A stretch of 24,889 bases of DNA, taken from IMG/VR virus record IMGVR_UViG_3300044701_000134, positions 1 through 24,889 of that record. One strand, written 5' to 3'. This document shows, one piece after another, positions 2,652 to 23,749 of this stretch. Both the position numbers and the translations under genes were made by a program. Below the pieces are notes generated by a model. The model was not told the DNA's origin, did no database searches, and saw only the letters and a list, made by a program, of their open reading frames with translations. This DNA is from a virus. Position 1 is the first letter of the stretch. Every line of letters starts with the position of its first letter.

Positions 2652-4007
2652 TTATGCAGGAAGATACTTCTGGGCTTTAATCTGCTTACCTTGCTTCTTT
2701 GTTCCTGTCCTAGCCTTACGAACCTTATCCATCATGGCATAAAGACGTTTAGCCCCAGCATCAGTAGAGCCATTACCTAAATGACTTACTACATCCGCTG
2801 GAACAACAAACTCCCCATCAGCCAATCGAGCTGGCTGTTTGCTACCGATAACCCCAGGAATAGAATCAGACATGCCATCACCAGGACCTTTAAGCATCCT
2901 ACCTCCATCTGAGTACCCTCCTAAACTAGTCATACCACCAGCCGCCATTGGTTGTGGATTTGTAGAATAACGATCAGTATTTGGATCAAAACTATAACCA
3001 CCAAACGATGGAACAGCGCCCATCATAGGTTGATTATCAACACTGTAGCGTTGCGTGTTTTGGTCAAAGTTGTATTTTGGTATCTGTGCTTGCTGACCTT
3101 GCTGTGCTTGAAGCATCATGTTTTCTATAAGCGCTAAACCACCGAAAGAATATTTCTTTACTGGACCGCCAGCAGCGTACCCCATACCAAATAAACCTTT
3201 TTGTAGGTTGCCCTGATCCATGCCCATAGCTGTGTAATCACCGCCTAGTTCATCATCTATTTGACCGCCTTTTGCTACCATAACTGGTTCATTAGGTTTT
3301 ATATTTGGATTTGGTGTTCCAGATTTAGCGGAATATGGTTGCAGTGCAGCAAATCCCTGATTAAAGTAATTGCGCTCTCTGGTATCCATGATTGGCATAC
3401 CAGCTGCATCATATTGCGCTGTAGCGTATGGGGATGGGTAAATACCTGTTGGTTCATTTGGTGTTGATGAATAGTCAAATGGACGAATTGTTCCAGGATC
3501 TGGCATTTGACCAGCGCCTACTCCTTTTTGTCTGCCACCTAATAAAGATAAAGCGGTTGTACCAGCTAAACCATATCCAAGAGTTTGCATACCAGTTAAT
3601 CCAGTAGCAGCTGGAGCAACTCCTGATGTAACAGTTCCAATTCCAGAAACTGGAGCAGCTGATCCTAGTGTAAGTGCTGGAGCAGCGCTTGGTGCTGCAA
3701 GAGCACCTGCTGGTACTCCTGTACTTACTGCTGTTGACATTGGGGCTGCTGCTTGACTGGCTAATGCACTACCTCCAGCACCAGTTGCTCCACCAGCTCC
3801 AGTTGCTGCGCCAGCGCTACCTGCCGCACCTAAACCCATCAAACCAGCACCAGCGCCACCAATAAGACCGCCAGTAAGCATACTGTTAAGAATATCTCCG
3901 TCACCAGTAATAGCCGAATAAGCGCCACCTACGCCAGCTCCAATTAACATTCCGCCAAGAATAGCGGATCCTCCTCCAACAGCTGTTGCTGTAGCAACGA
4001 ATGCCAT
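2652..4007 (-). CDS. Gly/Ala-rich putative ejection protein with conserved C-terminal domain, 451 aa
   Basis: Residues 1-160 are almost entirely Gly, Ala, Ser, Thr and Val with glycine-zipper-like runs (GGMLIGAGVGGA, GGLIGGAGAGLMGLG), suggesting membrane-active or tightly packed helices. The middle carries several AKGG-type motifs: VAKGGQI, YAAGGPVKKYSFGG and MAAGGMTSLGG. Residues 374-436 form a conserved phage module (GPGDGMSDSIPG, then LADGEFVVPADVVSHLGNG and a DAGAKRLYAMMDKVRKAR helix) that I know from many metagenomic phage proteins without an assigned function. The tail is very basic. It sits with the GNAT-like and Gln-rich proteins downstream of the nozzle, where podoviruses keep internal virion proteins; the ejection role is an inference. 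Confidence 0.7.
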   Translation of the reverse strand: MAFVATATAVGGGSAILGGMLIGAGVGGAYSAITGDGDILNSMLTGGLIGGAGAGLMGLGAAGSAGAATGAGGATGAGGSALASQAAAPMSTAVSTGVPAGALAAPSAAPALTLGSAAPVSGIGTVTSGVAPAATGLTGMQTLGYGLAGTTALSLLGGRQKGVGAGQMPDPGTIRPFDYSSTPNEPTGIYPSPYATAQYDAAGMPIMDTRERNYFNQGFAALQPYSAKSGTPNPNIKPNEPVMVAKGGQIDDELGGDYTAMGMDQGNLQKGLFGMGYAAGGPVKKYSFGGLALIENMMLQAQQGQQAQIPKYNFDQNTQRYSVDNQPMMGAVPSFGGYSFDPNTDRYSTNPQPMAAGGMTSLGGYSDGGRMLKGPGDGMSDSIPGVIGSKQPARLADGEFVVPADVVSHLGNGSTDAGAKRLYAMMDKVRKARTGTKKQGKQIKAQKYLPA

Positions 4008-4008
4008 A

Positions 4009-4428
4009 TTATTTCCCTCCCTCTAACAGAGGCTTTGAGTTATCTACACACATATTTTCCAGCTTTTCTATATCCGTTTCAGGGGTGGAATAGATGTTCT
4101 GAAAGACTACTGTTTCTATAATGTAAGCCACTTTCCTGCCTGGCTTAGCCATAAAGGTCATAGGAGCAACCAATTCTTGGGTTGTGCCGTCTTCTTGTAG
4201 GATTTTCATCCGACCAGATACCATGTTACAAAGGTGATCCATGCGATGGGGCTTGCCAATAATCAAAGCGCCAGATGGCATGGTTACTTCTTTGATATAA
4301 ATATTGGGTCCAAAATGGTGCTTCTCTTCGCACTGAATCTGAGGCTGAGCAATGGCGGCCTCGTATAAAGTATTTACCTTCTGCTCTAACAGAGAAGTAT
4401 CTTTAGGTTTCAGTGCAACAACGCTCAT
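4009..4428 (-). CDS. Cupin-like protein, 139 aa
   Basis: Residues 38-115 read as a single cupin (beta-barrel) domain: GPNIYIKEVTMPSGALIIG, then H61 and H65 in a short PHRMDH segment, VSGRMKIL with the turn glycine at 72, and the second-motif strand turn with KPG at 95-97. The histidine arrangement is compatible with a metal site, but the canonical second-motif histidine is not evident. It starts in a 4-base overlap with the preceding gene and is 1 base from the 451-aa gene, so it is translated with the putative internal virion proteins. A structural or sugar-binding role is as possible as catalysis; substrate unknown. Confidence 0.65.
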   Translation of the reverse strand: MSVVALKPKDTSLLEQKVNTLYEAAIAQPQIQCEEKHHFGPNIYIKEVTMPSGALIIGKPHRMDHLCNMVSGRMKILQEDGTTQELVAPMTFMAKPGRKVAYIIETVVFQNIYSTPETDIEKLENMCVDNSKPLLEGGK

Positions 4429-4952
4429 ATTTGTGCCTTGAACTTGTACTTGGGATTGTCAGACCGCATAACCTGAGCACCTAATCTTTGGAACATTTGT
4501 ATTGTTACAGGCGCTGGGATAGAATCATAGACAGTATTAATGCCTTTGTTTTTTAGGTACTTATAAAAATACTGCATATCATTAGCAAGATCTTCTATAG
4601 CGCCTACTGTAAAGAAATGAATCTGAGCAACGCCTTTTCCTAACGGCTTAAATCCCATAACCGAGCTTTCAAACGGAATTAATTGGAGACCATTTTCAAT
4701 TTCTCTTTGTACTCCAGCTATTGCCTTATCTACGGGTAAACCCTGATTCTTAAAGTAATTAGCAATTACTTTCATTATTTGTACTTGCTTAATATTCTCA
4801 TTAGCAGCGGTCAGTCCACCTTTTGCCATGCCTTGTGCTGGCATTTGAGGCATTGGTTGCTGTGGCAACGCAGCTTGAGGCGCACCAGCTGGTCTCGACA
4901 TTATTTGAGATTGATAGGTAGGCGTGTCTATTAAACTGTCAAAGAATCCCAT
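4425..4952 (-). CDS. Phage protein with AKGG motif and GNAT-like C-terminus, 175 aa
   Basis: Residues 1-45 are a Pro/Gln-rich low-complexity segment ending in MAKGGLTAANE (42-52), the same type of AKGG motif seen in the two large downstream proteins. Residues 55-175 are globular. They contain KGVAQIHFFTVG (106-117) and an YLKNKGINTVYDS...TIQMFQRLGAQ pattern (132-160), which resembles the second half of a GNAT acetyltransferase, including the Phe-Gln-Arg-Leu-Gly turn before the last strands. No acetyl-CoA loop is clear, so enzymatic activity is doubtful. It overlaps the cupin-like gene by ATGA. I assign it to the virion block by position and shared motif, not by recognised function. Confidence 0.6.
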   Translation of the reverse strand: MGFFDSLIDTPTYQSQIMSRPAGAPQAALPQQPMPQMPAQGMAKGGLTAANENIKQVQIMKVIANYFKNQGLPVDKAIAGVQREIENGLQLIPFESSVMGFKPLGKGVAQIHFFTVGAIEDLANDMQYFYKYLKNKGINTVYDSIPAPVTIQMFQRLGAQVMRSDNPKYKFKAQI

Positions 4953-4961
4953 AGTTGTCTT

Positions 4962-5261
4962 TCATATAATAGTCACCGTTACCGTTCCCACACTAGCTGT
5001 GGCTGACACTCCAAATAGATAAGAAATATAGGGTACAACAATCTTTAAATCCCCGCCAACCTGAAATACAGTGCCGTCTGGCAAATTGTACCCTGATGTT
5101 GGTAGATTTAATAGCCTGATTCCGTCCGTTTGTAAAGGAACATTTGAATCCAATTGTGTGAAATAAAGCCGTAAAACCCCAATAAGTTGAGCCAACTGTT
5201 GTTGGTCGTATTCTGGTGTCGCAACTGGAAGAGCTGGCGCTCGGAACTTTTGCATTCCCAT
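4962..5261 (-). CDS. Conserved small phage structural protein, 99 aa
   Basis: A short protein beginning MGMQKFRAP, with a helical segment EYDQQQLAQLIGVLRLYFTQ (18-37), a loop rich in Leu/Pro, and a beta-rich end that closes with SVGTVTVTII. That ending resembles one unit of the 22-residue repeat found in the genes at 16168-17498. Homologues of this kind sit beside the nozzle gene in related environmental phages as I remember them. It shares one base with the nozzle stop. A longer reading in another frame across the same bases (4993-5286) has no such family resemblance. Precise role unknown. Confidence 0.7.
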   Translation of the reverse strand: MGMQKFRAPALPVATPEYDQQQLAQLIGVLRLYFTQLDSNVPLQTDGIRLLNLPTSGYNLPDGTVFQVGGDLKIVVPYISYLFGVSATASVGTVTVTII

Positions 5262-7306
5262 TATCTGCGTCCATCTGGTCTGCCATCCAATCTAGGACTA
5301 CCTAACTGCCACTGGACATTTAAGTCAGAGGATTGAATCTGAATAGCCATCTGCCTAGCCCTAGCCCGCATAAATATCTGCTCGGTATAGACATCCACCG
5401 AGGTTTCAATAACATTTTCAGCCTCTATGTTGGAGTAAGCATTGCCAGGGAAGTTACGAGGCTTGATGTACATTGTGACCGCAGGCAAATTGGCAGTCGA
5501 TCCAGCAAAGTTAAGGTCAGGGATGATCCTCTTAGTCAGGATGAACTGATCCCCATCAACAAGGTCAAAGTCGGAAGAGGCTATATAAGAAGTCATAGCC
5601 GTAGTATTGTCGTTTGTACCCTGCTCGTGGTTATAAATAATGCCATTAGCGGTCATAGAGGTCTGCACAACGAGCTGTGAGATATTAAGGGTGTAAGTAC
5701 CAACCCCGCCTGTGCCTGTTCCTAGAGCCGTTATAACCGTTCCTGTAGCCAATCCAGTCCCAGTAATGACCGAGCCAACCTCTAAAATACCAGAAGAAAT
5801 CGATGTAACTGTTAGGGTTGTACCTGACACTGCACCAGTAAAGTACGTCTCTGTTATGGCTTGAGGGTATTCCCTTAGAGATGAGTCTGACCATGCAGTA
5901 CGGTCAATTGTGCCGTAATACCAAATCTTTTCTAGGTGGTTATAGATTACATAGGCGTTATTAACGTTACTGTCTGCTGTTGGGTAAAACCACCATATTT
6001 CGTTCCAGCCTTCGTTTGTTCCTGAGATAATCTGATCGGCTTGGTTGTAGTTAAGGTTCTCAAATACATGGTTTCTTAAAGAACAAGGCAAAGTCTCAAC
6101 CCGCCCACCATAGGCATAGAATTTATCCTGCCCCATCCAATAAGCCACATTATTGACTCCAGTAACAGCACGGGGACTAATAATAGAAATATTATCCGAA
6201 AGCTCTGTAAGGTTAAATACATCCGTAGTACCTACAAACTGTAAAGAACTTATAGTTCCCTCTGTATATACAAGGATCTCCTGACGAGTTGCTATGGCAC
6301 AGACAATAGCAGAACCACGGGATACCCGCAAAAACCCTGCCGAGTTAGTTATTAGCGGAGTCCATACATTAGGCTGGTCTTGGGTTGCCCAACGGATTAA
6401 TAGTGGGTCAAACGAACCACCACCGTAAGGAGTGGCTCCAAAAGCCAGAAGGTGTTTGTCGTTTTGGGAAACTAAGATTTGGGTTGCTTGGGTAGGCACA
6501 TCCGCAGGAGCAATACCGTCTATAGTTGTGGTGGCTAAAGGCGTAGCTCTAGTTGCTACCCCGCCTGAATACTGCCAATAATAGATCGTGCCATTACGGA
6601 TATTAGCCACAAGGTCGTTATCAAAGTTACCTAAGAACCAATCTCTTTGAGCGCTAAAAACAGGGGTAGAAGCACCAGAATCCCAAGCGCCCCGACCCCA
6701 AGCACCTGCGCCCCAGCCGTATCCTGCAACACCAATATCGTTACCAATGTTGATTTGGAAGGCAGCTGTGATTCCAGTACCACCGCCAGAGGTTGAGGAT
6801 GTAGCTGCTGTAGCCGTGGTAATCCTAAAAGAGTTTGCGTCTACATAAGTAATAATAAATTCAGTATTTAAGTTTGGTGCTGTAATACCTCCTACCGCTG
6901 AAGCACCAGAGAACGTGACATAAGAGCCATCTGTAGCACCGTGGGACGCTATGGCTACCGTAACCGTTTTAGAGCCATTTACCGTTGTAAAGCAATTATT
7001 GGTTGCTGGAGAAACAGAGGTAGCCCGTATTGGGGTAATGTCGTATAGGGTTTGCCCTGCATCAATGTACAGTTTTCTAGACGTTCCCATAGCTAAGTAG
7101 TTATCCGAAGCTGTGGTAATCCAGTTAAAGACTTGCCTACAAGTACCTACTATGGTGTATAGCCCATAGCGTAGCCAGCCGCCTATTTTCTGGGGATAGC
7201 CTGAACGGAAACGGATCTTATTGCACTCAAACCAACCACCCTCATTGGTATAGTTAGTTTGGTCTCGATTAACCCCTGGCTTAAATTGTAGTTTCTGTAG
7301 TGGCAT
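5261..7306 (-). CDS. Tail nozzle / P22 gp10-like stabilisation protein, 681 aa
   Basis: The N-terminus ([14 protein letters not shown], then [22 protein letters not shown]) and the later segments [51 protein letters not shown] and [11 protein letters not shown] are those of the gp10-like nozzle family, which plugs the portal channel and connects to the tail. The chain is longer than P22 gp10 (472 aa). Two beta-rich insertions account for this: residues 100-188 (a Ser-His-Gly-Ala, Thr-Gly-rich module) and 489-556 (a [20 protein letters not shown] module). A Trp-Gly stretch [12 protein letters not shown] lies at 197-208. It starts one base after the endolysin stop codon ends upstream, so it probably shares the transcript. 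Family placement is strong; exact structural position is inferred. Confidence 0.85.
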
Positions 7307-7307
7307 A

Positions 7308-7784
7308 TTAACTCAAGAATAAGGCTCTTTCATCGTTTCTGCGGGTGACTAGCCCTTTCAGTACTTTACCGCCAGCGAGCGTATATTTCAAGAACTCTTC
7401 TGCCGCTTCGTCCATTTCGCCCCGAATAACCTTCTGACGGAGGGTGCTGCGCTGTAGTGTTCCCAGACCAACATTAAAAGCAAAACTAACAAGAGCATCG
7501 AACTGACCTTGAGTGAGCTTAACGGGACAGTAGCGTTCCACACCTCGCTCAAAGCGATTAAGGTCGTCTCTAAGAATGTCATCTACTTCCTCCATTGAAA
7601 AGGTACGATCATCTTTATATTCCAGTGGATAGGCATCCCGTTCTTCCATCTTTAACTGAGCCTGACGGGGGTAAAGCACATGACCAACACCCACCGTATG
7701 CAGCTTGGCGGGACAGCGGTATGGACGCTGACGAACGCCCTCATGGTGCTTAATCATTTTGATGGCTTTATCGCTTACTTTCAC
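7308..7784 (-). CDS. Endolysin, GH24 lysozyme (T4-type muramidase)
   Basis: Degrades the glycan strands of peptidoglycan to release progeny. Residues 13-35 contain the GH24 active-site spacing: Glu15, then eight residues to Cys24, then five to Thr30, followed by VGVGH. The middle residue is Cys rather than the T4 Asp, a known natural alternative in this family. Further family signatures are [14 protein letters not shown] (residues about 92-105), LRQKV and the C-terminal [20 protein letters not shown]. At 158 aa it is a normal-length single-domain lysozyme. It has no convincing signal-anchor, so it should depend on the holin just upstream, with which it overlaps by 4 bases. Confidence 0.95.
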
Positions 7785-8263
7785 TTCTTAAATGCCTGTG
7801 TTCCGAACCAGAAAGAAACAATACTTGCCCAGATAATCTGAGTCTCATCGTCCCATAGGAGGTTTAGCGCTACGTCAAAAGCCACCTCTCTATGAAAGGC
7901 ATACCAGAAGCCAAATATCTCGACAAACATAAACATCAAGAACATCCCGTAGGTAATGGCTGGTCTAACCATTGCCCGTGAATTTGTAACCCACTGGGAA
8001 GCACCCTTGCCAATCTCGATGTCGTGAGCATACAAAGACGCCCTTTCTTGGGCTTGGGTCTGCATCTCAATCTGCTGGGTCTTAATCTCTTCTACATGGG
8101 CTTGGGCTGCAAAGCCACGCTCTGCCATCTGTAGTTCCCGTTCTGTCTGCATAGCAGCCATAGCCAGCTCATGCTTCTTGTCGGACTTGTCTTGGAAAAA
8201 CCCTAATAGGCTAGGTAGTCCGCCCGACAGGAATGATATAAGGGTAGTAAATAGGGTAATCAT
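7781..8263 (-). CDS. Holin, three-TM (GTA-type) family, 160 aa
   Basis: Probably forms the inner-membrane lesion that lets the endolysin out. Hydrophobic stretches lie at about residues 2-23, 96-122 (AITYGMFLMFMFVEIFGFWYAF) and 142-158. Between the first and second is a charged helical segment (KKHELAMAAMQTERELQMAERG). The ending [23 protein letters not shown] is typical of the three-TM holin family known from gene-transfer agents and phages. ATGA-type overlaps with the endolysin and the 86-aa gene place it in a compact lysis cassette. Family recognised by eye; a lysis role is well supported by context. Confidence 0.82.
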   Translation of the reverse strand: MITLFTTLISFLSGGLPSLLGFFQDKSDKKHELAMAAMQTERELQMAERGFAAQAHVEEIKTQQIEMQTQAQERASLYAHDIEIGKGASQWVTNSRAMVRPAITYGMFLMFMFVEIFGFWYAFHREVAFDVALNLLWDDETQIIWASIVSFWFGTQAFKK

Positions 8264-8520
8264 TTCTTTCCTCTTTCTTCAAGGAGTTTGACCCGCACAT
8301 GGAGGTCATGAATATCTTTGTAAATTTCTTCACGCTGTTTTGCTCTGCGTTCGGCTGAAATAGGGCTGTCTGTTGGGACGCCTTCATTAGTAATCAACGC
8401 TGGCATCTTGCCTTCAATCTGGGTCAGGCGAGTCTGAAATGAAGAAACTTGACCGAGTAGCCACGCTATACAGGCTACCAAGATCGGAATAACCGCCTTT
8501 AGTACGTCTTGCATATTCAT
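8260..8520 (-). CDS. Small membrane-anchored coiled-coil protein of the lysis cassette, 86 aa
   Basis: One N-terminal transmembrane segment (about residues 8-27, VIPILVACIAWLLGQV) is followed by a hydrophilic region with a C-terminal heptad-like helix (IHDLHVRVKLLEERGKK). This topology, single N-terminal anchor plus coiled coil, resembles an inner-membrane spanin or a small holin-like accessory, but no family signature is decisive and no matching outer-membrane lipoprotein spanin is evident. It overlaps both neighbours by 4 bases, just upstream of the three-TM holin. Lysis involvement is inferred from location and topology. Confidence 0.6.
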   Translation of the reverse strand: MNMQDVLKAVIPILVACIAWLLGQVSSFQTRLTQIEGKMPALITNEGVPTDSPISAERRAKQREEIYKDIHDLHVRVKLLEERGKK

Positions 8521-8969
8521 TTTTTAGACCCCCATACTATGTAATAAGCAATCCAAGCAGCTACTAAAAAGCACCAGAACTGCACCCATTTAACCTTTGA
8601 CAACTCGGCATCAAAGTACTTCTTGTCTTCCTTCTCAAGCCGTTCAATCTCGGTCTTGATGTCTAGCACTTTTTGCCACTCTTTAGTGCCGTGCTGCTTA
8701 ATGAAATCTACCCTTAGTTTGTACTCTTCATCGCTTATTTTCTTGCGGTGTTTGTACTCCTCAAGGGCTTTGAATATTGCCCGTTCCTTCTTAAACTCTG
8801 CTTCTCTACGCTCACGAATCTTTGCTTGCGCTTGCTGTCTTGCTACATCTACCGCTTCCTTCTGTACTTCCTCAATGTTCTTGCCAATCTCTCGCCCAGC
8901 CTCTCGACCAGTCTTAATCCCTTCGCTTATGCCCTTTGCACCAGCAGATAGTCCGAGTTCGTCTGACAT
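8517..8969 (-). CDS. Long coiled-coil protein with C-terminal membrane anchor, 150 aa
   Basis: Residues 30-125 are highly charged and helical (runs of E, K, R with heptad spacing), and residues 129-146 (VQFWCFLVAAWIAYYIVW) are a Trp/Tyr-rich transmembrane segment followed by three short hydrophilic residues. There is no signal peptide, so the coiled coil should lie in the cytoplasm with the protein tail-anchored in the inner membrane. It is the first gene of the membrane-protein block before the holin. It could assist lysis timing or membrane association of virion parts; I do not recognise a named family. Confidence 0.6.
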   Translation of the reverse strand: MSDELGLSAGAKGISEGIKTGREAGREIGKNIEEVQKEAVDVARQQAQAKIRERREAEFKKERAIFKALEEYKHRKKISDEEYKLRVDFIKQHGTKEWQKVLDIKTEIERLEKEDKKYFDAELSKVKWVQFWCFLVAAWIAYYIVWGSKK

Positions 8970-8977
8970 AATTCAAT

Positions 8978-9190
8978 TTAAAACACCTCTCCGCCAGCGG
9001 CAGGAACAGACGTAGCATGGATAGAAATATGCTGTCTTAGGTTTAAAGGCGCACCGCAGTCTGAACAGGTATCTGCCTCTAGCTCGGCTTTATCTAAGTC
9101 GTATCCACAGGCTGCACAAATAACCTCTACCTCATGGGCTGGTTCAATTAGCCCGCCCTCTAAATTTCTAGCCTCTACAAACTGTTTCAT
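8978..9190 (-). CDS. Zinc-ribbon small protein, 70 aa
   Basis: Two CxxC knuckles, Cys25-Ala-Ala-Cys28 and Cys42-Ser-Asp-Cys45, are separated by 13 residues with a Gly-Tyr after the first and Gly-Ala-Pro after the second, the pattern of a four-Cys zinc ribbon. The rest is acidic N-terminally and ends AAGGEVF. It starts in an ATGA overlap with the APS-kinase-like gene, so the two are co-translated. It may bind protein or nucleic acid; no further function can be read. Confidence 0.7.
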   Translation of the reverse strand: MKQFVEARNLEGGLIEPAHEVEVICAACGYDLDKAELEADTCSDCGAPLNLRQHISIHATSVPAAGGEVF

Positions 9191-10014
9191 GTCAGCCCCA
9201 TTTCTTTGCGGATCTTGGTTGCGGATATGTCTGTTATGGATTTATCAAAGGTCTCTTGTTCAATCTTGTAACCAACATCACGCCCATAGGTAATATTGAC
9301 GATATTAGGAACGACCTGAATCTCATACTGCCCTTGGAATAGGGGGTCTAAATCCCGTTTAATATTGTTCTTAACTTGCTCGATGGCAAACGGGTTACTA
9401 CCTTGCCAGCCCTGACAATCACGAATCTGAATAACTACTTGACCTGTCTTGGCAATGGCTCGTTCAAACAAAGCTCTATGTCCTTCATGCCACGGTTGCC
9501 ATCTGCCTAGCATTTGGACTGTTTCGGCTTGCCAGTTAAAGACGGGTCGTCTGCGGTTCTCAATAATGTGGTTGCCGATGAACTCAGCCCACTTCTCGCA
9601 GTTCTGCTCCGTTACACGGAAGTCATAGACCTCTGGTGGGATAAATGCTTTGTTGGTATCTTCGTACCGACCAGCATCAATGGTGTCCATCCAGATAGTC
9701 CAATCTGCCTTGAAGTTGTTACGCATCTCTACGAGTGGTGCTACAAAGTCGCAGATGACATAATCACCGCCAGCTTCTAAGGCAAACTGAGCCATGCGTA
9801 AGGATTGACGAATACGACCTTCTTTGGAGAAGTCCCAATCGTTGTACTTCTTACGCACTTCGTCTGCATTGAACCAATTAACTTGTGCGTTAAAGCCAGT
9901 AAAGGATTCGCCATAATCTTTGCGAGTACCGTTTGTTTCTAAATACTTCTTTAAGGCTTGTGCTAGGTAAGTCTTACCTGAACCTGGCAAACCCATGATT
10001 AGTATCTTTTTCAT
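9187..10014 (-). CDS. APS-kinase-like P-loop domain fused to HxGH nucleotidyltransferase, 275 aa
   Basis: The N-terminal domain (1-150) has a Walker A loop, GLPGSGKT at 8-15. It also has a conserved NADEVR (49-54), DWDFSKEGRIRQSLRMA (59-75) and VICDFVAP (86-93), which align with the DGDNxR, FSxxxRxENIRR and SFIxP positions of adenylylsulfate kinases; these make PAPS from APS and ATP. YEDTNKAFIPPEVYDFRV (117-134) fits the family's C-terminal part. The second domain (160-275) has GRWQPWHEGH (170-179), an HxGH motif, and ISATKIRKEM (263-272), as in NMN adenylyltransferases, cytidylyltransferases and, in outline, ATP sulfurylases. Whether the second domain makes APS, NAD or an activated sugar cannot be decided by eye. 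It lies in the sulfotransferase/glycosyltransferase block. Confidence 0.8.
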   Translation of the reverse strand: MKKILIMGLPGSGKTYLAQALKKYLETNGTRKDYGESFTGFNAQVNWFNADEVRKKYNDWDFSKEGRIRQSLRMAQFALEAGGDYVICDFVAPLVEMRNNFKADWTIWMDTIDAGRYEDTNKAFIPPEVYDFRVTEQNCEKWAEFIGNHIIENRRRPVFNWQAETVQMLGRWQPWHEGHRALFERAIAKTGQVVIQIRDCQGWQGSNPFAIEQVKNNIKRDLDPLFQGQYEIQVVPNIVNITYGRDVGYKIEQETFDKSITDISATKIRKEMGLT

Positions 10015-10710
10015 TTATCTCTCTAAGTTATCGTTTCTAATGGTGCTTCGGTCTGTTTCTGCTCTGTTTAATATTGTTGTATTTGCAAGACTACCTTCGT
10101 CATAAGCGTATACGCCCATCTGGTGAATTGGGAATATATCTGCTCGTAACATAACATCTAATGAACTATTAATACCATACTTCAAGACATGAGCAAGCAT
10201 ATTTTTTGCTACCGCTGGGTCTATGGAGTAAGAATGCGCCCTGCATATAAAATGATAATTTTTCCCCATCGAACCATGTGGCGGTGTTGGCAACACTTTC
10301 CAGTTACGCTTTACTTGCTCATTACAGCCTAGGTACGAAATAGAGTTATACATAGTATGCTCACGGTAAGGTGCAACCATAATAGCGTCATGCTCCAAAA
10401 CAACCAATGGTACATCGTCTTCTACACATTTTGCCCACAAACTAATGTGGGATAAAGCACAAGCCACTTCTGACTTAGTTAAAAAATGGTCAGCAATCTT
10501 TACCATTTTCATAAAAGGATTTAAGTTTTCTGGTGGATGAATGCCATCCTTTGTCCCATCAAACGCATCCCAATACTGGTACTTCATCCCAACTTTATCG
10601 CATGAATCTGCACATCGCTTGGCTAATGACTCTGACAATTTATGCCCTTTTAGCCTAATAATGTACGCACCGCTAACCCTTACATCATAAGAAAGAAATA
10701 ATGACTTCAA
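10015..10710 (-). CDS. Glycosyltransferase family 25-like protein, 231 aa
   Basis: Residues 14-30 (GAYIIRLKGHKLSESLA) and 81-92 (EVACALSHISLW) are the GT25 signatures, normally YVINLxR and GExGCxxSHxxxW. They are followed by VPLVVLEHDAIM (100-111), where Glu-His-Asp occupies the site of the usual metal-binding Glu-Asp-Asp. GT25 enzymes transfer hexoses, classically in lipopolysaccharide or lipo-oligosaccharide synthesis. The only workable upstream start is TTG at 10710, which overlaps the preceding stop as TTGA; the ribosome binding site is weak, so expression may rely on translational coupling. It sits between the sulfotransferase-GT fusion and the APS-kinase-like gene. Acceptor is unknown: LPS, virion fibre or free sugar. 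Confidence 0.82.
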   Translation of the reverse strand: MKSLFLSYDVRVSGAYIIRLKGHKLSESLAKRCADSCDKVGMKYQYWDAFDGTKDGIHPPENLNPFMKMVKIADHFLTKSEVACALSHISLWAKCVEDDVPLVVLEHDAIMVAPYREHTMYNSISYLGCNEQVKRNWKVLPTPPHGSMGKNYHFICRAHSYSIDPAVAKNMLAHVLKYGINSSLDVMLRADIFPIHQMGVYAYDEGSLANTTILNRAETDRSTIRNDNLER

Positions 10711-11090
10711 ATTAAAGCATCAAGTTCATCATGCGTTGTACAGGCTTCAATAGCGGCTTGCTTTGGTGCAACAGCATCTTTAGCGGCTTGCAGGGCTACT
10801 GGATCATAAGTAGATGGTTCTGCTGCCTGTTTTCTAAAAAGCATATTAAATGTCATAGCAGCCTGTTGTTTCATGCTTTCTTTGCGGGATTCAACAGTTA
10901 TATCAGCAACGCCATAAACAATTTCTACAGGGTCTTTGGTCAAATCAAAAGTATGACCTGTATAGTATTGACGATGTGGGGTAATCGCAGGTCTTACCTC
11001 GATAGCACTTTTCCAGCCAGGTCTGCTGTCTGGTGGGGTATCCCAACAGTCTTTAACTTCACCATTTTCAATACGAACATATAAACTCAT
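10707..11090 (-). CDS. Tail-fibre-assembly-like small protein, 127 aa
   Basis: It begins YVRIENGEVKDCWDTPP and continues with PHRQYYTGHTFDL and PVEIVYGVADITVE, the style of short phage proteins that accompany tail fibres; the C-terminus is a predicted helix (ALQAAKDAVAPKQAAIEAC). It overlaps the upstream fusion gene by 4 bases (ATGA) and the GT25 gene by 4. The position two genes after the receptor-type genes suits a chaperone or adaptor of the fibre, but no function is demonstrated by any motif. Confidence 0.55.
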   Translation of the reverse strand: MSLYVRIENGEVKDCWDTPPDSRPGWKSAIEVRPAITPHRQYYTGHTFDLTKDPVEIVYGVADITVESRKESMKQQAAMTFNMLFRKQAAEPSTYDPVALQAAKDAVAPKQAAIEACTTHDELDALI

Positions 11091-12793
11091 TTTATTCTCC
11101 TAATATTTTGGTTAAATTCACCAGTCACTTTAGCCAAAGGGGTATCCCAATCACCAAATTTCTCTTGCCTAAAAAGTCTGACATTACGATACCAGATGCT
11201 TGTGTCCTTGCCATCAGCCCATAAATAATAAGGCAATATTGGACTAATAATCCAAGTCTCTTTACCCATTGCTGCTGCTAAGTGTGCAACCGAAGTGCAA
11301 GAACTAATGACTTTATCCACACTCTCAATTACTGCCCTAGTATGTAACCAAGTATCTAGGCAAGGTCTTTGCACATGGTCAGGAATGTTTTCTGTCCCTA
11401 TGTCTCTTTGCAAGCTAATTAACTCTGCTGGTATTGTAAATAAAGGTGTTGGGTCAAATACCCTATTATGCTCATGCTCAAATTGTGGGTTGCCTTGCCA
11501 CCGCAGACCAATCTTGCCGTTAGGTTTAATGGTTTTGCAAGGTATATAGGGTGCGTTATTGACTGTTAAAAAGCTCAGATAGCCTGACATACCTAAGACA
11601 TGGTAATCATGGTAAACACCGCCAGCAGCCCTAGATTCAACCACCGCAGATACACCATCAACCAACATCATTAGACCAGCTAACTCAGCCATACAAGCAA
11701 CTACACATACACCGCCACGACTGACAATCTCTCTTGCCCATCTAGCAGAGTGTATTTGGTCGCCTCGACCACCTTCTAATACCAATAAAACAACTTCTCC
11801 ATTTAAAGGTCTGCCATCGTATTTTGGCATTGACGAGGGATTAGGATTACCAAATATTTCTTCGTTACGACCTCTATCTAATAGCTCAAAACCTTCTTTT
11901 AAGTTGCCATATTTTAGTGCGTACCAGCCACGATTAAATGCTGCTCTGTCATCGTGCGGTCTTGTGTCTAAAAGAATTTTGCACATTGACTCGGCAACCT
12001 CAAACTCACCCCGCATAGCAGCTTCTACTTGGAAGTCTAGTACATCCTTTTTAGGTTCTGTTTCACCCTTCCAAAACTTAGGAGCATGGAACCTATACTC
12101 AAACTCACCCAATACTTCTTTAGGGGATGTGCCTGTGTTTTTTAGTTCAGGTTTGATGTCGTGCAGACCAGCAATACCCCAAGCGTTTTCATCATCCTCT
12201 GCAACTGATTTACCATCAATATTATTAAAGTCGTGAGCAAATGGCTGTAGATTCCAAAAGGCTTCTATCTTAGCAATGACCGCCTGTGGGTCTGACATCA
12301 ACTCATCGTACTCAACAAATAGAATGTTTTCAGGATGATTGGTATACCCTTCATACAAAGAAGCGTAAGAATTTTTTAAATGTCCAATTAAATGACCATT
12401 ACAAAACTCAGCAAGGTTCTCTGGTTTAGCAATTTTGGCAAACGATGCTGCACAAGTAGCTACATCCCTGACAGTAGCAACAATTCGCACTGGTGAGCCT
12501 AAGACCTCGCCCATTGTCTTTTGAACCTGCGGTGCTACCCAACCCCTAGACTTATCAACAGTAATCTTGCCATCATCCCGCACAGGGATTAGCTTCCTAA
12601 GTGTTTCGTAAAGATGCTCGTTAGTTTGTCGTTGACCTTTGGTTGATGGGTTGTTTTCCCATGTTTGTACGACAGAACCAAATATATCAATTAGTCCTGA
12701 AGTTGGCGTTACATGGATGTCGTTTCTCTGATTTAGCAACGCAGCTAAAACAGTAGAGCCTGAACGGGGGAGTCCTGATAAAAAGTACATCAT
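11087..12793 (-). CDS. Sulfotransferase-TPR-glycosyltransferase (GT-B) fusion, 568 aa
   Basis: Residues 1-195 are a PAPS-dependent sulfotransferase. The 5'-phosphosulfate loop is SGLPRSGSTVLAALL (6-20). The 3'-phosphate motif is VRDVATCAASFAK (108-120) with Arg109 and Ser117, and ILFVEYDELMSDP (157-169) is the usual following block. Residues 253-308 look like a TPR pair. Residues 333-568 form a GT-B half related to GT9/GT41-type enzymes: LEGGRGDQIHSARWA (339-353), IGLRWQGNP (428-436) and SSCTSVAHLAAAMGKETW (497-514). The protein could sulfate and glycosylate the same acceptor. It starts in an ATGA overlap with the RCC1-protein gene, so it is made with the presumed receptor-binding proteins. 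Domain calls are solid; substrates unknown. Confidence 0.85.
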   Translation of the reverse strand: MMYFLSGLPRSGSTVLAALLNQRNDIHVTPTSGLIDIFGSVVQTWENNPSTKGQRQTNEHLYETLRKLIPVRDDGKITVDKSRGWVAPQVQKTMGEVLGSPVRIVATVRDVATCAASFAKIAKPENLAEFCNGHLIGHLKNSYASLYEGYTNHPENILFVEYDELMSDPQAVIAKIEAFWNLQPFAHDFNNIDGKSVAEDDENAWGIAGLHDIKPELKNTGTSPKEVLGEFEYRFHAPKFWKGETEPKKDVLDFQVEAAMRGEFEVAESMCKILLDTRPHDDRAAFNRGWYALKYGNLKEGFELLDRGRNEEIFGNPNPSSMPKYDGRPLNGEVVLLVLEGGRGDQIHSARWAREIVSRGGVCVVACMAELAGLMMLVDGVSAVVESRAAGGVYHDYHVLGMSGYLSFLTVNNAPYIPCKTIKPNGKIGLRWQGNPQFEHEHNRVFDPTPLFTIPAELISLQRDIGTENIPDHVQRPCLDTWLHTRAVIESVDKVISSCTSVAHLAAAMGKETWIISPILPYYLWADGKDTSIWYRNVRLFRQEKFGDWDTPLAKVTGEFNQNIRRIK

Positions 12794-15264
12794 CCTCTAG
12801 TACTCAATACAGAGTTCCCTGCTTGTGTTGGTATAAGCCAACTTGTTAAAGTACCTATTTGTTTTGGAGAACTAAAAAACGCACCATAACCTTGTCCAGT
12901 TTGCCCAACACCACCGTTACCCCAAGCCCATAGTGTTCCATCTGTTTTAACACACATTGGTGTGGTTGATCCGTTTGCGTTACCTTGACGCAATAAGCTC
13001 CAATTAGTTAATGAACCAATCTGAACAGGAGATGAACGGCTAACAGTATCACCTAAACCTAATTCACCTGTACCGTTATTACCTCCAACAGCCCACAATG
13101 ATCCATCGGTTTTTATGCAAAGAGTTTGCGCATATCCACCCATCGGTTGTTTCCAATTAGTTAAAGCACCAACTTGAACTGGCGATGAGCGTTTAACTGT
13201 ATCGCCCAATCCTAATTGACCTTGAGCGTTATCGCCCCAGATAAATAATTTTCCATCTGTTGTTGTACACGCAGTATGGCTACGACCATTTGATGCTATA
13301 TACCAATTGGTTGATGAGCCAATTTGAATTGGAGAAGAAAAATATGTTGTATTTCCATTTCCTAATTGACCATAATGGTTTCTACCCCAAGCCCATAATT
13401 GTCCATTTGTTTTAGTAGCAATACAAAAATCAAGACCAGTATTGCTAACTCTGTTCCAATCAGTTAATGATCCAACTTGTACTGGAGATGAACGGTTGAT
13501 TGTGTCGCCTAAACCTAAACCACCAAAACTAGCGTTACTTCCCCAAGACCACAATGTTCCATCTGTTTTAATACATATTGAACTTCTATAACCAGCACTA
13601 ATTTTAGACCAATTAGTTAAAGAGCCAACTTGTACAGGCGAAGAACGATAAATTACAGTATCTGATCCTAATTGACCCCTTTGATTAGCACCCCATGACC
13701 ACAAACTACCATCAGCTTTGGTACATAAAGTAAAGCCTAGATTACCATTATTGCTACCACCAGATGGAGTTTTCCAATTTGTTAATGCACCAACCTGTAC
13801 AGGAGAGTCATATCTAGTTGTATTGTTTAATCCTAATTGACCTTGTCCGTTATAACCCCAACCAAATAATCTACCTACATAAGCAGTTACTACAGCTGTA
13901 CTAGCAGAAGTTGCGGGTGTTGAGCCAATACCATTAGTGGCTGTTACTACGCAACGAAGCGTAGAGCCAACATCAGCTGCATCAATTGTATAAGTGCTAG
14001 ATGTAGCGCCAACAATGTTGCTAGTACCTCGTTGCCATTGATAAGCAAAACTGGTTGGGAATTGACGCCATGTTCCCGTGCTGCAAGAAAGAACGCTTTG
14101 CTGTTCTGCTGTTCCTGTAATCACTGGCAATGTTAAATTGCTTGGTGCAGCAGTTGCTACTCCTTCTATAGCGCCAGTTGCCCCTATGCCCCCATCTAAT
14201 GTAAACCACAGGCTTGAAGAACCGATTTGAACAGGAGAAAGACGCTGTGTGGTGTTTCCTAAACCTAGTCTACCAGCACCATTATATCCCCAAGCCCAAA
14301 GAGTACCATCTGTTTTAATGCAAAAACTAGAAAGTGTTGATGCTGATGGAACAGACCAATTTGTTAATGCACCAATTTGTTTTGGAGACGAATAAGCATA
14401 CGGACCACCAAGACCTAATTGACCATATGCACCGCCACCCCATGACCACAAACTACCATTAGTTTTTGTACACAAACTAAAATTATCACCACCTGTTGGT
14501 GTTGCCCAATCAGTTAAACTTCCAACTTGTTTTGGAGATGAGTAACTTGTGGTATTTCCAAGACCTAATCGACCATTACCACCGTTACCCCAAACCCATA
14601 AAGTTCCATCGGTTTTAACACATAAAGAGTGCCGTCTACCTGCGGATGGTGTTGCCCAATTAGTTAAAGCACCAACTTGTACAGGAGACGAACGGTTAGC
14701 AGTATCACCAAGTCCTAGCTGACCATAGTTATTATAGCCCCAAGCAAACAATTTACCATCAGTGTTAACAGCTAAAACAGCATACGATGCTGTTGCTTTT
14801 GACCAATTAGTTAAAGAACCGATTTGTTTAGGGGATGAATAATTAGTTGTGTTTCCTAGCCCTAAACTACCATAATTGCCTCGACCCCAAGACCATAATG
14901 TTCCATTGTCTTTAATACTTAAAGAAAAACTAGCAAAACCCGCTACTGGAGTTGCCCAACCTGTCAATGCGCCAACTTGAACAGGAGAAGAACGCCAAGC
15001 TGTATCATTTAAACCTAATGCGCCATAGTTGTTAAAACCCCAAGTCCATAATGTTCCATCGGTTTTAGTTGCAACTGTGTGATTACCTGTTTCAAATTTT
15101 GCCCAATCTGTTAGTGCTCCAACCTGAACTGGAGATGATCTATTTGCTGTATCGCCTATACCTAATTGACCAAAATTACCTTGCCCCCACATAAATAGCT
15201 TACCGCCAGAAAGTGGGATAGCAGAAATAGCTTTAGCAAATAAGAAATTACGAGAACCGAACAT
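12790..15264 (-). CDS. Double RCC1-propeller protein with central Ig-like domain, 824 aa
   Basis: Fourteen RCC1-type repeats of about 50 residues are visible, each with (T/S)LWxWGxxxxGxLGLGxT, SSPxQ(V/I)G, LTNW and a closing xCxKTDG. Seven cover residues 22-371 and seven cover 465-824, suggesting two seven-bladed beta-propellers. Between them, 374-461 is an Ig-like fold (SCSTGTWRQFPTSFAYQWQ, later LRCVVTATNGIGS). The N-terminal 20 residues could serve as an attachment. It lies directly after the tail-fibre-like gene and before the sulfotransferase fusion, so I infer a receptor-binding or fibre-tip protein rather than the guanine-exchange role of eukaryotic RCC1. It has a good ribosome binding site (AAGGGA). 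No catalytic motif seen. Confidence 0.85.
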   Translation of the reverse strand: MFGSRNFLFAKAISAIPLSGGKLFMWGQGNFGQLGIGDTANRSSPVQVGALTDWAKFETGNHTVATKTDGTLWTWGFNNYGALGLNDTAWRSSPVQVGALTGWATPVAGFASFSLSIKDNGTLWSWGRGNYGSLGLGNTTNYSSPKQIGSLTNWSKATASYAVLAVNTDGKLFAWGYNNYGQLGLGDTANRSSPVQVGALTNWATPSAGRRHSLCVKTDGTLWVWGNGGNGRLGLGNTTSYSSPKQVGSLTDWATPTGGDNFSLCTKTNGSLWSWGGGAYGQLGLGGPYAYSSPKQIGALTNWSVPSASTLSSFCIKTDGTLWAWGYNGAGRLGLGNTTQRLSPVQIGSSSLWFTLDGGIGATGAIEGVATAAPSNLTLPVITGTAEQQSVLSCSTGTWRQFPTSFAYQWQRGTSNIVGATSSTYTIDAADVGSTLRCVVTATNGIGSTPATSASTAVVTAYVGRLFGWGYNGQGQLGLNNTTRYDSPVQVGALTNWKTPSGGSNNGNLGFTLCTKADGSLWSWGANQRGQLGSDTVIYRSSPVQVGSLTNWSKISAGYRSSICIKTDGTLWSWGSNASFGGLGLGDTINRSSPVQVGSLTDWNRVSNTGLDFCIATKTNGQLWAWGRNHYGQLGNGNTTYFSSPIQIGSSTNWYIASNGRSHTACTTTDGKLFIWGDNAQGQLGLGDTVKRSSPVQVGALTNWKQPMGGYAQTLCIKTDGSLWAVGGNNGTGELGLGDTVSRSSPVQIGSLTNWSLLRQGNANGSTTPMCVKTDGTLWAWGNGGVGQTGQGYGAFFSSPKQIGTLTSWLIPTQAGNSVLSTRG
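12793..15201 (-). repeat. In-frame RCC1 repeat array (two blocks of seven, about 150 bases each)
   Basis: Fourteen diverged copies of a roughly 150-base unit encode the RCC1 blades, in two blocks at about 14149-15201 and 12793-13872 with the Ig-like segment between. The copies are similar at protein level but have many base differences, so recombination between blades is possible while exact repeats are short. Confidence 0.75.
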
Positions 15265-22718: not shown

Positions 22719-22979
22719 TTAGCACTTCCATCTTGCTAAAGAAGCTGCTTTACGGGTAGGTCTGCCTTTTTCATCTTTCATTGGTCCAGGCATCCCAGAC
22801 ATGCGAGCGCAAAATGATTTCTTTCTAGCGCCACCTTCTGGCTGTGGAGCCTTTAGATTAGATCCAGTAGCTTTGTTGTACTTAGCACGACCTTTTGCGG
22901 TTAAGCCAGCACCCTTGGATACTGGTAATTTCTCACCACGACCAATTGCTAAAGAAGGAGTTTTCTTTTTGGTAGCCAT
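22719..22979 (-). CDS. Small basic phage protein ending RWKC (DUF6321-like), 86 aa
   Basis: The block KGAGLTAKGRAKYNKATGSN and then KKSFCARMSGMPGPMKD and the final ARWKC form a pattern I know from numerous phages, including T7-like marine ones (I recall the name DUF6321, not verified here). Two Cys (CARM and the terminal Cys) are conserved in that pattern. Highly basic. TAATG overlap couples it to the glycosyltransferase upstream. Function unknown. Confidence 0.75.
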   Translation of the reverse strand: MATKKKTPSLAIGRGEKLPVSKGAGLTAKGRAKYNKATGSNLKAPQPEGGARKKSFCARMSGMPGPMKDEKGRPTRKAASLARWKC

Positions 22980-23749
22980 TATGCGACATCCTTTTTGGAG
23001 TCAATAGGTCTAATAAGAGGATAGAGATACTCTTCCCCAAAAGATCCTGCAAACTCTTCCATTCCTAGATGACCTAGCTTAATCGTTGGGTCAATCCATA
23101 CCTCGTAGCCATGAGCCGTAGCACGATCACAGAAAAGATAGTCTTCGCCTACATAGCCTTCTGGGGTGGATTTAAAGTCAAAGAATGAATAGCAGAATTT
23201 GTCTGGATTTCCATCTACTACTCGGTCATCGTGATATTTCCACTCAGGATGATTGTCTCTGAGGGTCTCAAATACGTCTTTACGAATCAACATAAAGGCT
23301 GTGGCAATCCGTTTAGCCTTAACTAAGCCGTAGGAGTTCATATAAATCCCGCCATCAGCATCTTGCTCTAAAGTCGATATATAGACCTGACCTTTTTTAC
23401 GGGCAACAGGAACTCCGCCTACGATACCCTTCTTAGGGTCAGTATTCCACGCCATTAGACGGAAGATGTCTTGTGGGTTAAACGTAATGTCCGAATCAAT
23501 AAACATTAAGTCTGTGCAGTCTGACGCTAAGAAGTCTTTAGCAATTAAGTTTCTGACACGAGACACAACTGAGCATCCAGAGATGTTGCAAATCTGAATA
23601 TCAATTCCGTGCTTAGGAGCTTCTACAGCAAACTGAGCCATAGCAATAGCCAGTTTGACTGAGACTTTAAAGTCATAAGCGGGAAGACCAAGCATGACCT
23701 TCCTACCTACTAAGTTAAAAGAACCTTGAGCTTGCGTTGGATTATCCAT
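22979..23749 (-). CDS. GT-A-fold glycosyltransferase, 256 aa
   Basis: Residues 17-25 (KVMLGLPAY) begin a nucleotide-sugar-binding Rossmann-like domain. SRVRNLIAKDFL (63-74) precedes LMFIDSDITF (81-90), whose Asp-Ser-Asp is the DxD metal site. A later GEDYLFCDRATAHGYEVW (about 200-217) is the acceptor-side motif with Glu-Asp, and KLGHLG supplies the third metal ligand His. This is the layout of phage-borne GT2/GT-A enzymes; donor and acceptor are not evident. It sits between the duplicated structural genes and the basic-protein cluster. It overlaps the upstream gene by 8 bases and has no signal sequence, so it is cytoplasmic. Confidence 0.85.
   Translation of the reverse strand: MDNPTQAQGSFNLVGRKVMLGLPAYDFKVSVKLAIAMAQFAVEAPKHGIDIQICNISGCSVVSRVRNLIAKDFLASDCTDLMFIDSDITFNPQDIFRLMAWNTDPKKGIVGGVPVARKKGQVYISTLEQDADGGIYMNSYGLVKAKRIATAFMLIRKDVFETLRDNHPEWKYHDDRVVDGNPDKFCYSFFDFKSTPEGYVGEDYLFCDRATAHGYEVWIDPTIKLGHLGMEEFAGSFGEEYLYPLIRPIDSKKDVA

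Follow-up and report, generated by a model that had tools for sequence, protein, structure and literature searches.

A Predicted Sulfation Cassette with a Putative Compact PAPS Synthase in a Freshwater Phage

Introduction

Can a phage supply activated sulfate to a sulfotransferase of its own? Phage sulfotransferases (PMC10580990) and phage cysC-type genes (BFVD entries) are already known, separately. The sulfotransferases of cyanophages S-SRM01 and S-SKS1 and of OM43 phages, which belong to the same superfamily as the one described here, were reported without mention of a PAPS source, and the function of phage sulfotransferases was called unclear (PMC10580990). The question is raised anew by a stretch of freshwater phage DNA of 24,889 nt, referred to here as the window. 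An earlier note on this DNA had proposed that the phage makes activated sulfate and attaches it to a target during late infection.

Gene Organization of the Cassette

The putative sulfation cassette and its neighbors are all encoded on the minus strand (Table 1). The earlier note had placed three enzymes correctly, but it had missed a fourth gene, encoding the 127-aa protein, and the junctions, described there as 1–4 bases, are 4-base overlaps, with the GT25 and kinase genes directly abutting. The run of overlapping genes reaches into the RCC1-repeat gene and the gene of the 70-aa zinc-ribbon-like protein.

Table 1. Positions of the cassette genes, their domains and the adjacent genes in the window.
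Feature	Position	Strand	Remarks
70-aa zinc-ribbon-like protein	8978..9190	-	Weak ribbon matches; directly downstream of the kinase gene; at +1 in 14 loci
Fusion of kinase and nucleotidyltransferase, 275 aa; predicted compact PAPS synthase	9187..10014	-	PF01583 over cut-off; phrog_10255
APS-kinase-like domain, residues 1-141	9592..10014	-	APS kinases are the best PDB profile matches
HxGH adenylyltransferase (NT) domain, residues 162-275	9190..9531	-	Predicted sulfate adenylyltransferase
GT25-family glycosyltransferase, 231 aa	10015..10710	-	PF01755, E 7e-17
127-aa protein without family match	10707..11090	-	Between GT25 and ST; in the cassette of 37 related loci
568-aa sulfotransferase (ST) with TPR/GT9-like C-terminal half	11087..12793	-	Matches to PF13469 and PF00685 exceed the cut-offs
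PAPS-dependent sulfotransferase domain, residues 1-260	12014..12793	-	PAPS motifs
824-aa RCC1-repeat protein, candidate fibre/receptor-binding protein	12790..15264	-	PF00415, 13 repeats; upstream of the cassette

The GT25-like enzyme of the earlier note was recovered well above the Pfam cut-off (Glyco_transf_25, 62.4 vs. 24 bits), and in about 15 related loci the kinase gene has a homologue of this enzyme as its direct or close neighbor. Many of the related cassettes are flanked by RCC1 genes, and an FkbM methyltransferase is among the glycan genes neighboring kinase-NT loci. With over 590 relatives of the 275-aa protein in IMG/VR, a chance occurrence could be excluded. A DNA-level search for the cassette in named phages gave no match. 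In 31 loci, the phage kinase gene has a DUF2061 gene as neighbor. On a nodulation plasmid, DUF2061 separates an ST gene from cysD-cysN; as a marker of sulfate activation alone it was rejected, since two of the three plasmid loci examined had other neighbors.

The 275-aa Protein Joins an APS-Kinase-Family Domain to an HxGH Domain

By its sequence, the first half of the 275-aa protein is a P-loop kinase of the APS-kinase family, and conversion of APS to PAPS is its predicted activity. Pfam APS_kinase (PF01583) matched with E 2e-7 (31.5 bits vs. a cut-off of 21.1). The kinase motifs comprise the P-loop GLPGSGKT, N-A-D51..R54, F62, R67, F-V-A-P93 and a short cap, GRYEDTNKAF; among 81 sequences, D51, R54 and F62 are invariant and R67 is kept in more than 90%. 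When the kinase-domain profile was compared with the PDB, the best matches were all APS kinases (E 1e-16), and the next full-domain matches outside this family followed at about 1e-5. An AF2 model of the 275-aa protein built from 81 diverse sequences (pLDDT 89.1) replaced an earlier model built from close relatives only (pLDDT 63.5), and the top Foldseek match of the predicted structure was the APS-kinase domain of human PAPSS1. Thus, the concern of the earlier note that a non-APS kinase family might fit better was not borne out in either profile or fold.

The phage kinase departs from the APS-kinase pattern in several respects. Its score against the TIGR00455 apsK equivalog, 24 bits, lies far under the cut-off of 138.7, and it reads NADE in place of DGDN. 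Compared with the APS-site residues of PAPSS1 (R92, F101, R106 and N109), R54, F62 and R67 are kept, N is replaced by Q70 and the cap region differs.

The second half, an HxGH nucleotidyltransferase (NT) domain of about 115 aa, carries the motifs GRWQPWHEGH, NPF, YGRDVGY and ISATKIR, and a weak CTP_transf_like match in Pfam coincides with GRWQPWHEGH. The fusion of an APS-kinase-like domain to an HxGH nucleotidyltransferase, as read in the earlier note, was therefore recovered. The NT profile matched NMN adenylyltransferases best in the PDB (E 2e-10), and no ATP sulfurylase was among its matches at E ≤ 10. The NCBIfam cut-offs for NMN adenylyltransferase and NadR were not reached (26.8 vs. 127 and 20.1 vs. 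341 bits, respectively), and 13 profile columns separate the aligned blocks, compared with about 39 residues in MjNMNAT, the second block being a very weak match. Alignment of the phage NT with the NT domain fused to haloarchaeal ApsK gave 99.6% in hhalign. Since a canonical ATP-sulfurylase domain is absent, the 275-aa protein was classed as working like PAPSS, not as being PAPSS.

The Sulfotransferase and Its C-Terminal Half

Two Pfam sulfotransferase families matched the 568-aa protein over their cut-offs, Sulfotransfer_3 (PF13469; E 4e-13, 50.7 vs. 27 bits) and PF00685 (38.2 vs. 22 bits). The PAPS-binding motifs include the 5′ loop GLPRSGST; PRSGST, R109 and S117 (the R...S of the 3′ site) are invariant in ten relatives. 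While the PAPS-binding ST of the earlier note was thus confirmed, the GT-B domain fused to it was recovered less clearly. GT9 and TPR_16 signals in the C-terminal half remained under the Pfam cut-offs and occurred in some homologues only, with GT9 (PF01075) in three of ten homologues of this half (best E 0.019). A profile search of this half against the PDB and a phmmer search with the whole ST-GT protein gave no match. The tail is a putative GT-B domain.

Linkage of Kinase and Sulfotransferase Genes in Phages

In the phage lineage of the window, seven members carry both genes, one carries the kinase without the ST, none the ST without the kinase, and eleven carry neither (Fisher p = 1.6e-4); the single exception is a contig that ends inside the ST gene. 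A survey of such co-occurrence had been named in the earlier note as a check on its proposal, and the co-occurrence is strong. Since the kinase matches APS kinases and co-occurs with the ST, production and use of activated sulfate by the phage is the best-supported reading, although the earlier note had overlooked both the possible ATP-sulfurylase role of the HxGH domain and the occurrence of the module outside phages.

STs adjoin the kinase-NT gene in about 48 close and about 30 distant phage loci and fall into at least three groups. Furthermore, STs of unrelated families are neighbors of this kinase-NT protein in further phages as well as in SAR11, SAR86, SAR116 and Bradyrhizobium. A universal linkage in phages was rejected, as many kinase-bearing records, including many large phages with the kinase-NT gene, show no PF13469 ST. 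In three phages in culture, DLP_6, Clavibacter 33 and Bhz60 (about 40% identity), the whole genome lacks a PF13469 ST, and the kinase-NT gene of Bhz60 comes after a NADAR gene. Tandem cluster-7 proteins matched nothing in the PDB, and Pfam gave only weak Stf0 matches for them.

Relatives in Bacteria and Archaea

A phage-specific module was rejected after a genome scan, since SAR11, SAR86, alphaproteobacteria and haloarchaea carry it as well. Haloarchaeal plasmids harbor ST–kinase-NT operons, and the haloarchaeal kinase-NT proteins exceed the TIGR00455 apsK cut-off (147.8 and 160.4 bits). The phage 275-aa protein is homologous to these apsK-NT fusions over its full length. A related ST adjoins the kinase-NT gene in Bradyrhizobium macuxiense.

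In a SAR116 genome, which has sat elsewhere, a stand-alone NT gene is followed by aprM-like, aprB and aprA genes. In the sat-aprMBA arrangement of Allochromatium, this position is held by sat (PMC3779200). In two SAR11 loci, the kinase-NT gene lies upstream of aprB-aprA. A complete SAR86 genome encodes two STs and has adjacent kinase and NT genes, this kinase being its only APS-kinase-family gene; CysC, CysD, CysN, Sat and AprB were not found in it. Among 148 Pelagibacterales, an ST occurs in 123 and an ATP sulfurylase in 7, and the kinase-NT is associated with the ST (p = 8e-5).

Discussion

The cassette is likely to be a phage-borne sulfation module, in which a compact bifunctional PAPS synthase with a non-orthologous ATP-sulfurylase half would serve an ST that sulfates a glycan made by the glycosyltransferases. 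The computed basis consists of the domain identities, the co-inheritance of kinase-NT and ST, the association with several ST families in phages as well as in bacteria and archaea, the NT-ApsK fusion and the SAR86 genome. PAPS supply by the kinase-NT protein is well supported, and the enzymatic activities are predicted; we infer both activities, the NT reaction and the acceptor. The C-terminal HxGH domain would form APS from sulfate and ATP as a non-orthologous replacement of ATP sulfurylase, and the N-terminal domain would phosphorylate APS to PAPS. The adjacent ST would then take the sulfuryl group of PAPS and attach it to a glycan, which the fused GT9-like half and GT25 may build. As acceptor, a glycan or glycoprotein that the phage encodes in its RCC1/fibre region would be most likely, and the host surface less so; gene position is what suggests such targets (fibre, RCC1 protein or host surface), and likewise the late timing proposed earlier.

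An ATP-sulfurylase role of the NT domain is suggested by its context, its sequence being nearest to NMN adenylyltransferase. We lean slightly towards regarding it as an unrecognized ATP sulfurylase of a third class, distinct from Sat and CysDN, and as part of a minimal PAPS synthase that serves sulfation and not sulfate assimilation. Fused to or beside an APS kinase, it would be carried by phages, SAR11, SAR86, rhizobia and haloarchaea, and phages would package it with STs for their own sulfated glycans. The nearness to NMN adenylyltransferase also fits an accessory role, i.e., recycling or another adenylylation, with the kinase half making PAPS for the ST from host APS. Kinase-only genes adjoining an ST, as on a Rhodoferax plasmid, agree with this, and AprBA could be another APS source in aprBA-bearing SAR11. 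However, in the complete ST-bearing SAR86 genome none of the families tested offers another source of APS, aprA is absent in 11 SAR86 genomes, and the stand-alone NT occupies the sat position of an aprMBA operon, so that an accessory NT appears unlikely.

Since the NT domain matches NMN adenylyltransferases and a NADAR gene neighbors the kinase-NT gene in Bhz60, NAD salvage was weighed seriously. The protein would then be a NadR-like enzyme with swapped domain order, combining nicotinamide riboside kinase and NMN adenylyltransferase, that protects the phage from NAD depletion; phages do carry NadR, NadM and NadV (PMC9503650). It was ranked low, with hardly any weight, as the kinase domain matches APS kinases and not the NadR kinase, the stretch between the two aligned blocks of the NT appears to be about 26 residues shorter than in MjNMNAT, fusions of the same NT with a textbook ApsK stand next to an ST, and kinase-NT genes are associated with STs and aprBA. 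The adjoining GT25, GT9-like and FkbM methyltransferase genes would suit activation of a sugar or polyol as in HldE, where the kinase phosphorylates a glycan precursor and the NT adds a nucleotide for the neighboring glycosyltransferases, sulfation not being involved. This is highly improbable given the APS-kinase identity of the first domain, and neither the ST co-inheritance nor the ApsK-NT fusions and aprBA context fit it.

The predicted phage PAPS synthase shares with bifunctional PAPSS the order of kinase and HxGH nucleotidyltransferase, the kinase fold and family and the association with sulfotransferases. In contrast, its NT shares with PF01747 no homology other than the superfamily motif, the kinase shows the NADE and short-cap differences, and the whole protein has only 275 aa. 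With CysC it has the Pfam family and the aligned P-loop, D/R/F/R and FxxP positions in common, whereas it stays far under the apsK equivalog cut-off, which the haloarchaeal relatives with the same NT pass. NadM and NadR share the GR(F/W)QPxHxGH, NPF and ISxTxxR motifs and gave the best NT profile matches, but the phage NT appears shorter between the aligned blocks, is fused to an APS-kinase-type domain and has other gene neighborhoods.

If the proposed sulfation module is real, it would provide donor supply for phage sulfotransferases and open sulfated glycans of phage or host to testing. The module would also explain how SAR11 and SAR86, mostly without known ATP sulfurylases, could run sulfotransferases. 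A search of the open-access literature found no paper that deals with PAPS and the sulfotransferases of SAR11 or SAR86, and none that describes a new ATP sulfurylase of the NT kind. Sulfate activation is central to the sulfur cycle, and a further enzyme for it, non-orthologous to those known, would occur in widespread phages of freshwater and in bacteria that rank among the most abundant of the ocean. A single-chain PAPS synthase of 250–275 aa would also be useful for producing costly PAPS. Among viral proteins, the best structural matches of the kinase domain are phage-annotated APS kinases, i.e., that of Ralstonia phage phiRSL1 (B2ZYE1; BFVD) and CysC of uncultured Caudovirales; in contrast to these, the kinase described here has an ST gene linked to it and an adenylyltransferase as its second domain.

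Organization of the cassette

The window stems from an IMG/VR virus record (24,889 bases), and its genes stand close together on the - strand, within a structural/lysis region. In transcription order, the cassette comprises an RCC1-repeat gene, a 568-aa sulfotransferase (ST) with an additional C-terminal half, a 127-aa gene, GT25, the 275-aa fusion of an APS-kinase-like and a nucleotidyltransferase (NT) half, and a zinc-ribbon-like gene. Neighbouring genes all overlap or abut. The kinase/ST/GT25 module claimed by the earlier note is real. Open reading frames come from a simple longest-first rule, and many of the compared contigs are fragments.

Coordinates of the window genes and of the loci compared with them
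Locus	Source	Position	Feature
Window	virus	9187-10014 (-)	kinase-NT
Window	virus	11087-12793 (-)	ST
Window	virus	22979-23749	256-aa protein
L055	phage	7037-7996	cluster 68 protein
L076	phage	5101-6081	substrate-binding-like protein
L084	Stenotrophomonas phage Bhz60	7559-8735	kinase-NT, NADAR
L094	phage	3419-3871	adenylyltransferase
L165	SAR11	3788-8893	kinase-NT, aprB-aprA
L166	SAR11	8001-13642	kinase-NT, aprB-aprA
L209	SAR116	8100-11700	NT, aprB, aprA
L397	Microvirga symbiosis plasmid	4319-10767	NodJ-like to cysN
L398	haloarchaeal plasmid	5980-6834	'cysC'
L399	haloarchaeal plasmid	5992-6849	'cysC'
L404	haloarchaeal plasmid	5773-6843	'cysC'
L402	Rhodoferax plasmid	3519-5582	fibre assembly, ST, kinase

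The kinase half resembles APS kinases

The kinase half matched Pfam APS_kinase above the cut-off. With a profile built from 25 diverse relatives, APS kinases (archaeal, plant, fungal and human) scored 1e-16 to 1e-9; full-domain matches to other kinases were weaker, from about 1e-5. A second AlphaFold model of the 275-aa protein had a pLDDT of 89; the top structural match was the APS-kinase domain of human PAPSS1 and, among viral models, the annotated phiRSL1 APS kinase. Thus, by profile and by fold, APS kinases match best, not another kinase family. The P-loop and the positions aligned with what we take to be D89, R92, F101 and R106 of PAPSS1 are conserved, DGDN is replaced by NADE and presumed N109 by Q or H. 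The cap consists of a short GRF-DTN-F segment. NKDLGFS-EDRIEHARRMG, found in some distant relatives, is nearer to textbook APS kinase.

Kinase and sulfotransferase genes go together in related phages

More than 590 viral relatives of the 275-aa protein were found. By neighbour clustering, 48 close loci have an ST that belongs to the window's group and lies no more than five genes from the kinase. The kinase neighbours in distant phage loci were tandem Stf0-like proteins (14, a weak match), the window's ST group (7), another Sulfotransfer_3 group (7) and a Sulfotransfer_2-like protein (2). As a control, phages were fetched via the 681-aa structural protein, whose distant relatives include proteins of Pelagibacter and other phages, rather than via the kinase. 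Of these, 19 contigs had 5 kb or more upstream: seven carried both kinase and ST, 11 neither and none just the ST, and in one with the kinase the contig ended within the ST (p=1.6e-4; near-duplicates among the contigs number at least two). Thus, the genes paired by the earlier note go together in related phages. In close relatives, the kinases are more than about 85% identical and the adjoining STs down to 26-45%; therefore, the supplier is constant and the consumer variable.

In two phage contigs (L159, L160), kinase and NT are separate adjacent genes behind an ST. About 13 contigs, including L094, have an adenylyltransferase resembling RfaE domain II upstream of tandem Stf0-like proteins and kinase-NT. 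In L055 and L079, a second protein (cluster 68) lies upstream of the kinase; in L055, a kinase domain of this family follows another domain in a single protein, with residues 185-274 matching phrog_10255. Two large phage contigs of 260-345 kb (L076, L077) encode what seems to be a secreted substrate-binding protein, TctC-like by eye and with no PHROG match; its gene stands a few genes ahead of the kinase.

Distribution outside phages

Bacterial and archaeal genomes were scanned too: kinase-NT is fused in SAR11, SAR116, Bradyrhizobium, Rhizobium and others, and encoded by two neighbouring genes in SAR11 and SAR86. STs of several kinds are adjacent in eight non-phage loci (Pfam-confirmed): the ST adjoining kinase-NT in Bradyrhizobium macuxiense resembles that of the window, and in SAR86 an ST lies directly upstream of the kinase. 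On the Microvirga plasmid, NodJ-like and ST-like ORFs are followed by kinase-NT and cysN, which suggests a use in Nod-factor sulfation. Three haloarchaeal plasmids carry an ST gene followed by a gene annotated cysC. Its product combines a textbook APS kinase, which passes the curated apsK cut-off in 2/2 tested, with a domain homologous to the phage NT (hhalign 99.6%, 34% identity). This C-terminal NMNAT-like domain is unannotated. The Rhodoferax plasmid carries genes for a tail-fibre-assembly protein, an ST and a kinase, in that order; this phage-module-like run lies near a recombinase gene.

Function of the NT half

The motifs GR(Y/W)QP(F/W)HxGH, NPF, YGRDVGY and ISATxIR are near-invariant across 81 NT sequences. 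The NT profile matched NMN adenylyltransferases first (2e-10), then NadR and PPAT, and ATP sulfurylase was absent from its matches; therefore, sequence alone does not give the substrate. Between two aligned blocks, the NT is about 26 residues shorter than MjNMNAT.

The NT half may nevertheless be an ATP sulfurylase non-orthologous to known ones, an activity predicted from strong genomic context: its homologue is fused to genuine ApsK, its gene takes the place of sat ahead of aprM-like-aprB-aprA, and known ATP sulfurylases are rare or missing in the ST-bearing SAR11 and SAR86. In SAR116 (L209), NT is a stand-alone gene, followed by a QmoC/AprM-like membrane gene and then by aprB and aprA; in Allochromatium, sat holds the corresponding place, co-transcribed with aprMBA (PMC3779200). 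This SAR116 genome has sat elsewhere too, which does not fit that reading. In SAR11 loci L165 and L166, fused kinase-NT lies upstream of aprB-aprA, again where sulfur oxidisers have sat, and next to genes for a cystathionine-lyase-family protein and a SorU-like cytochrome. SAR11 was reported to lack cysDN and sat, with a cysC listed (PMC5069961). Among 148 Pelagibacterales genomes, an ST was present in 123 and a PF01747 ATP sulfurylase in seven, and the kinase was associated with ST (p=8e-5, uncorrected for phylogeny or completeness); many SAR11 have AprBA as an alternative possible APS source. In 11 SAR86 genomes, aprA was absent. One complete SAR86 chromosome, examined in full, has two STs and adjacent kinase and NT genes; CysD (searched in this one genome), CysN, canonical CysC, Sat and AprB were not found, and positive controls were recovered. 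Thus, if these STs use PAPS, kinase and NT are the only candidate PAPS source seen there. DUF2061 is beside the phage kinase in 31 loci, and on a Mesorhizobium nodulation plasmid it lies between ST and cysD-cysN.

The resemblance to NMN adenylyltransferase counts against an ATP sulfurylase. Gene context in some phages does not fit a sulfation module. PF13469 STs were not found in cultured phages of Stenotrophomonas and Clavibacter whose proteins are about 40% identical, nor in many large kinase-bearing phages, some of which carry Stf0-like STs that this model misses. In Bhz60, whose genome gave no PF13469 match, the kinase-NT neighbour is NADAR, a better fit to NAD metabolism, and the function may differ there; kinase-NT overlaps the NADAR gene, and a DNA methyltransferase follows. 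The 275-aa protein is likened to PAPS synthase in its predicted working but was not filed in the PAPSS family because its sequence was not recognized as ATP sulfurylase.

Proposed target of sulfation

PAPS supply and use by the phage module, as the earlier note proposed, is the best explanation. As to the target, FkbM methyltransferase, GT25 and further glycan genes occur in related cassettes, which sit between RCC1/fibre and structural or lysis genes; this content and position suggest that the virion, or its receptor-binding protein, bears a sulfated glycan, with modification of the host surface as the less likely alternative. At the far end of the window, the 256-aa protein matches Glyco_transf_21 weakly (phrog_1574) and is a possible further glycosyltransferase.
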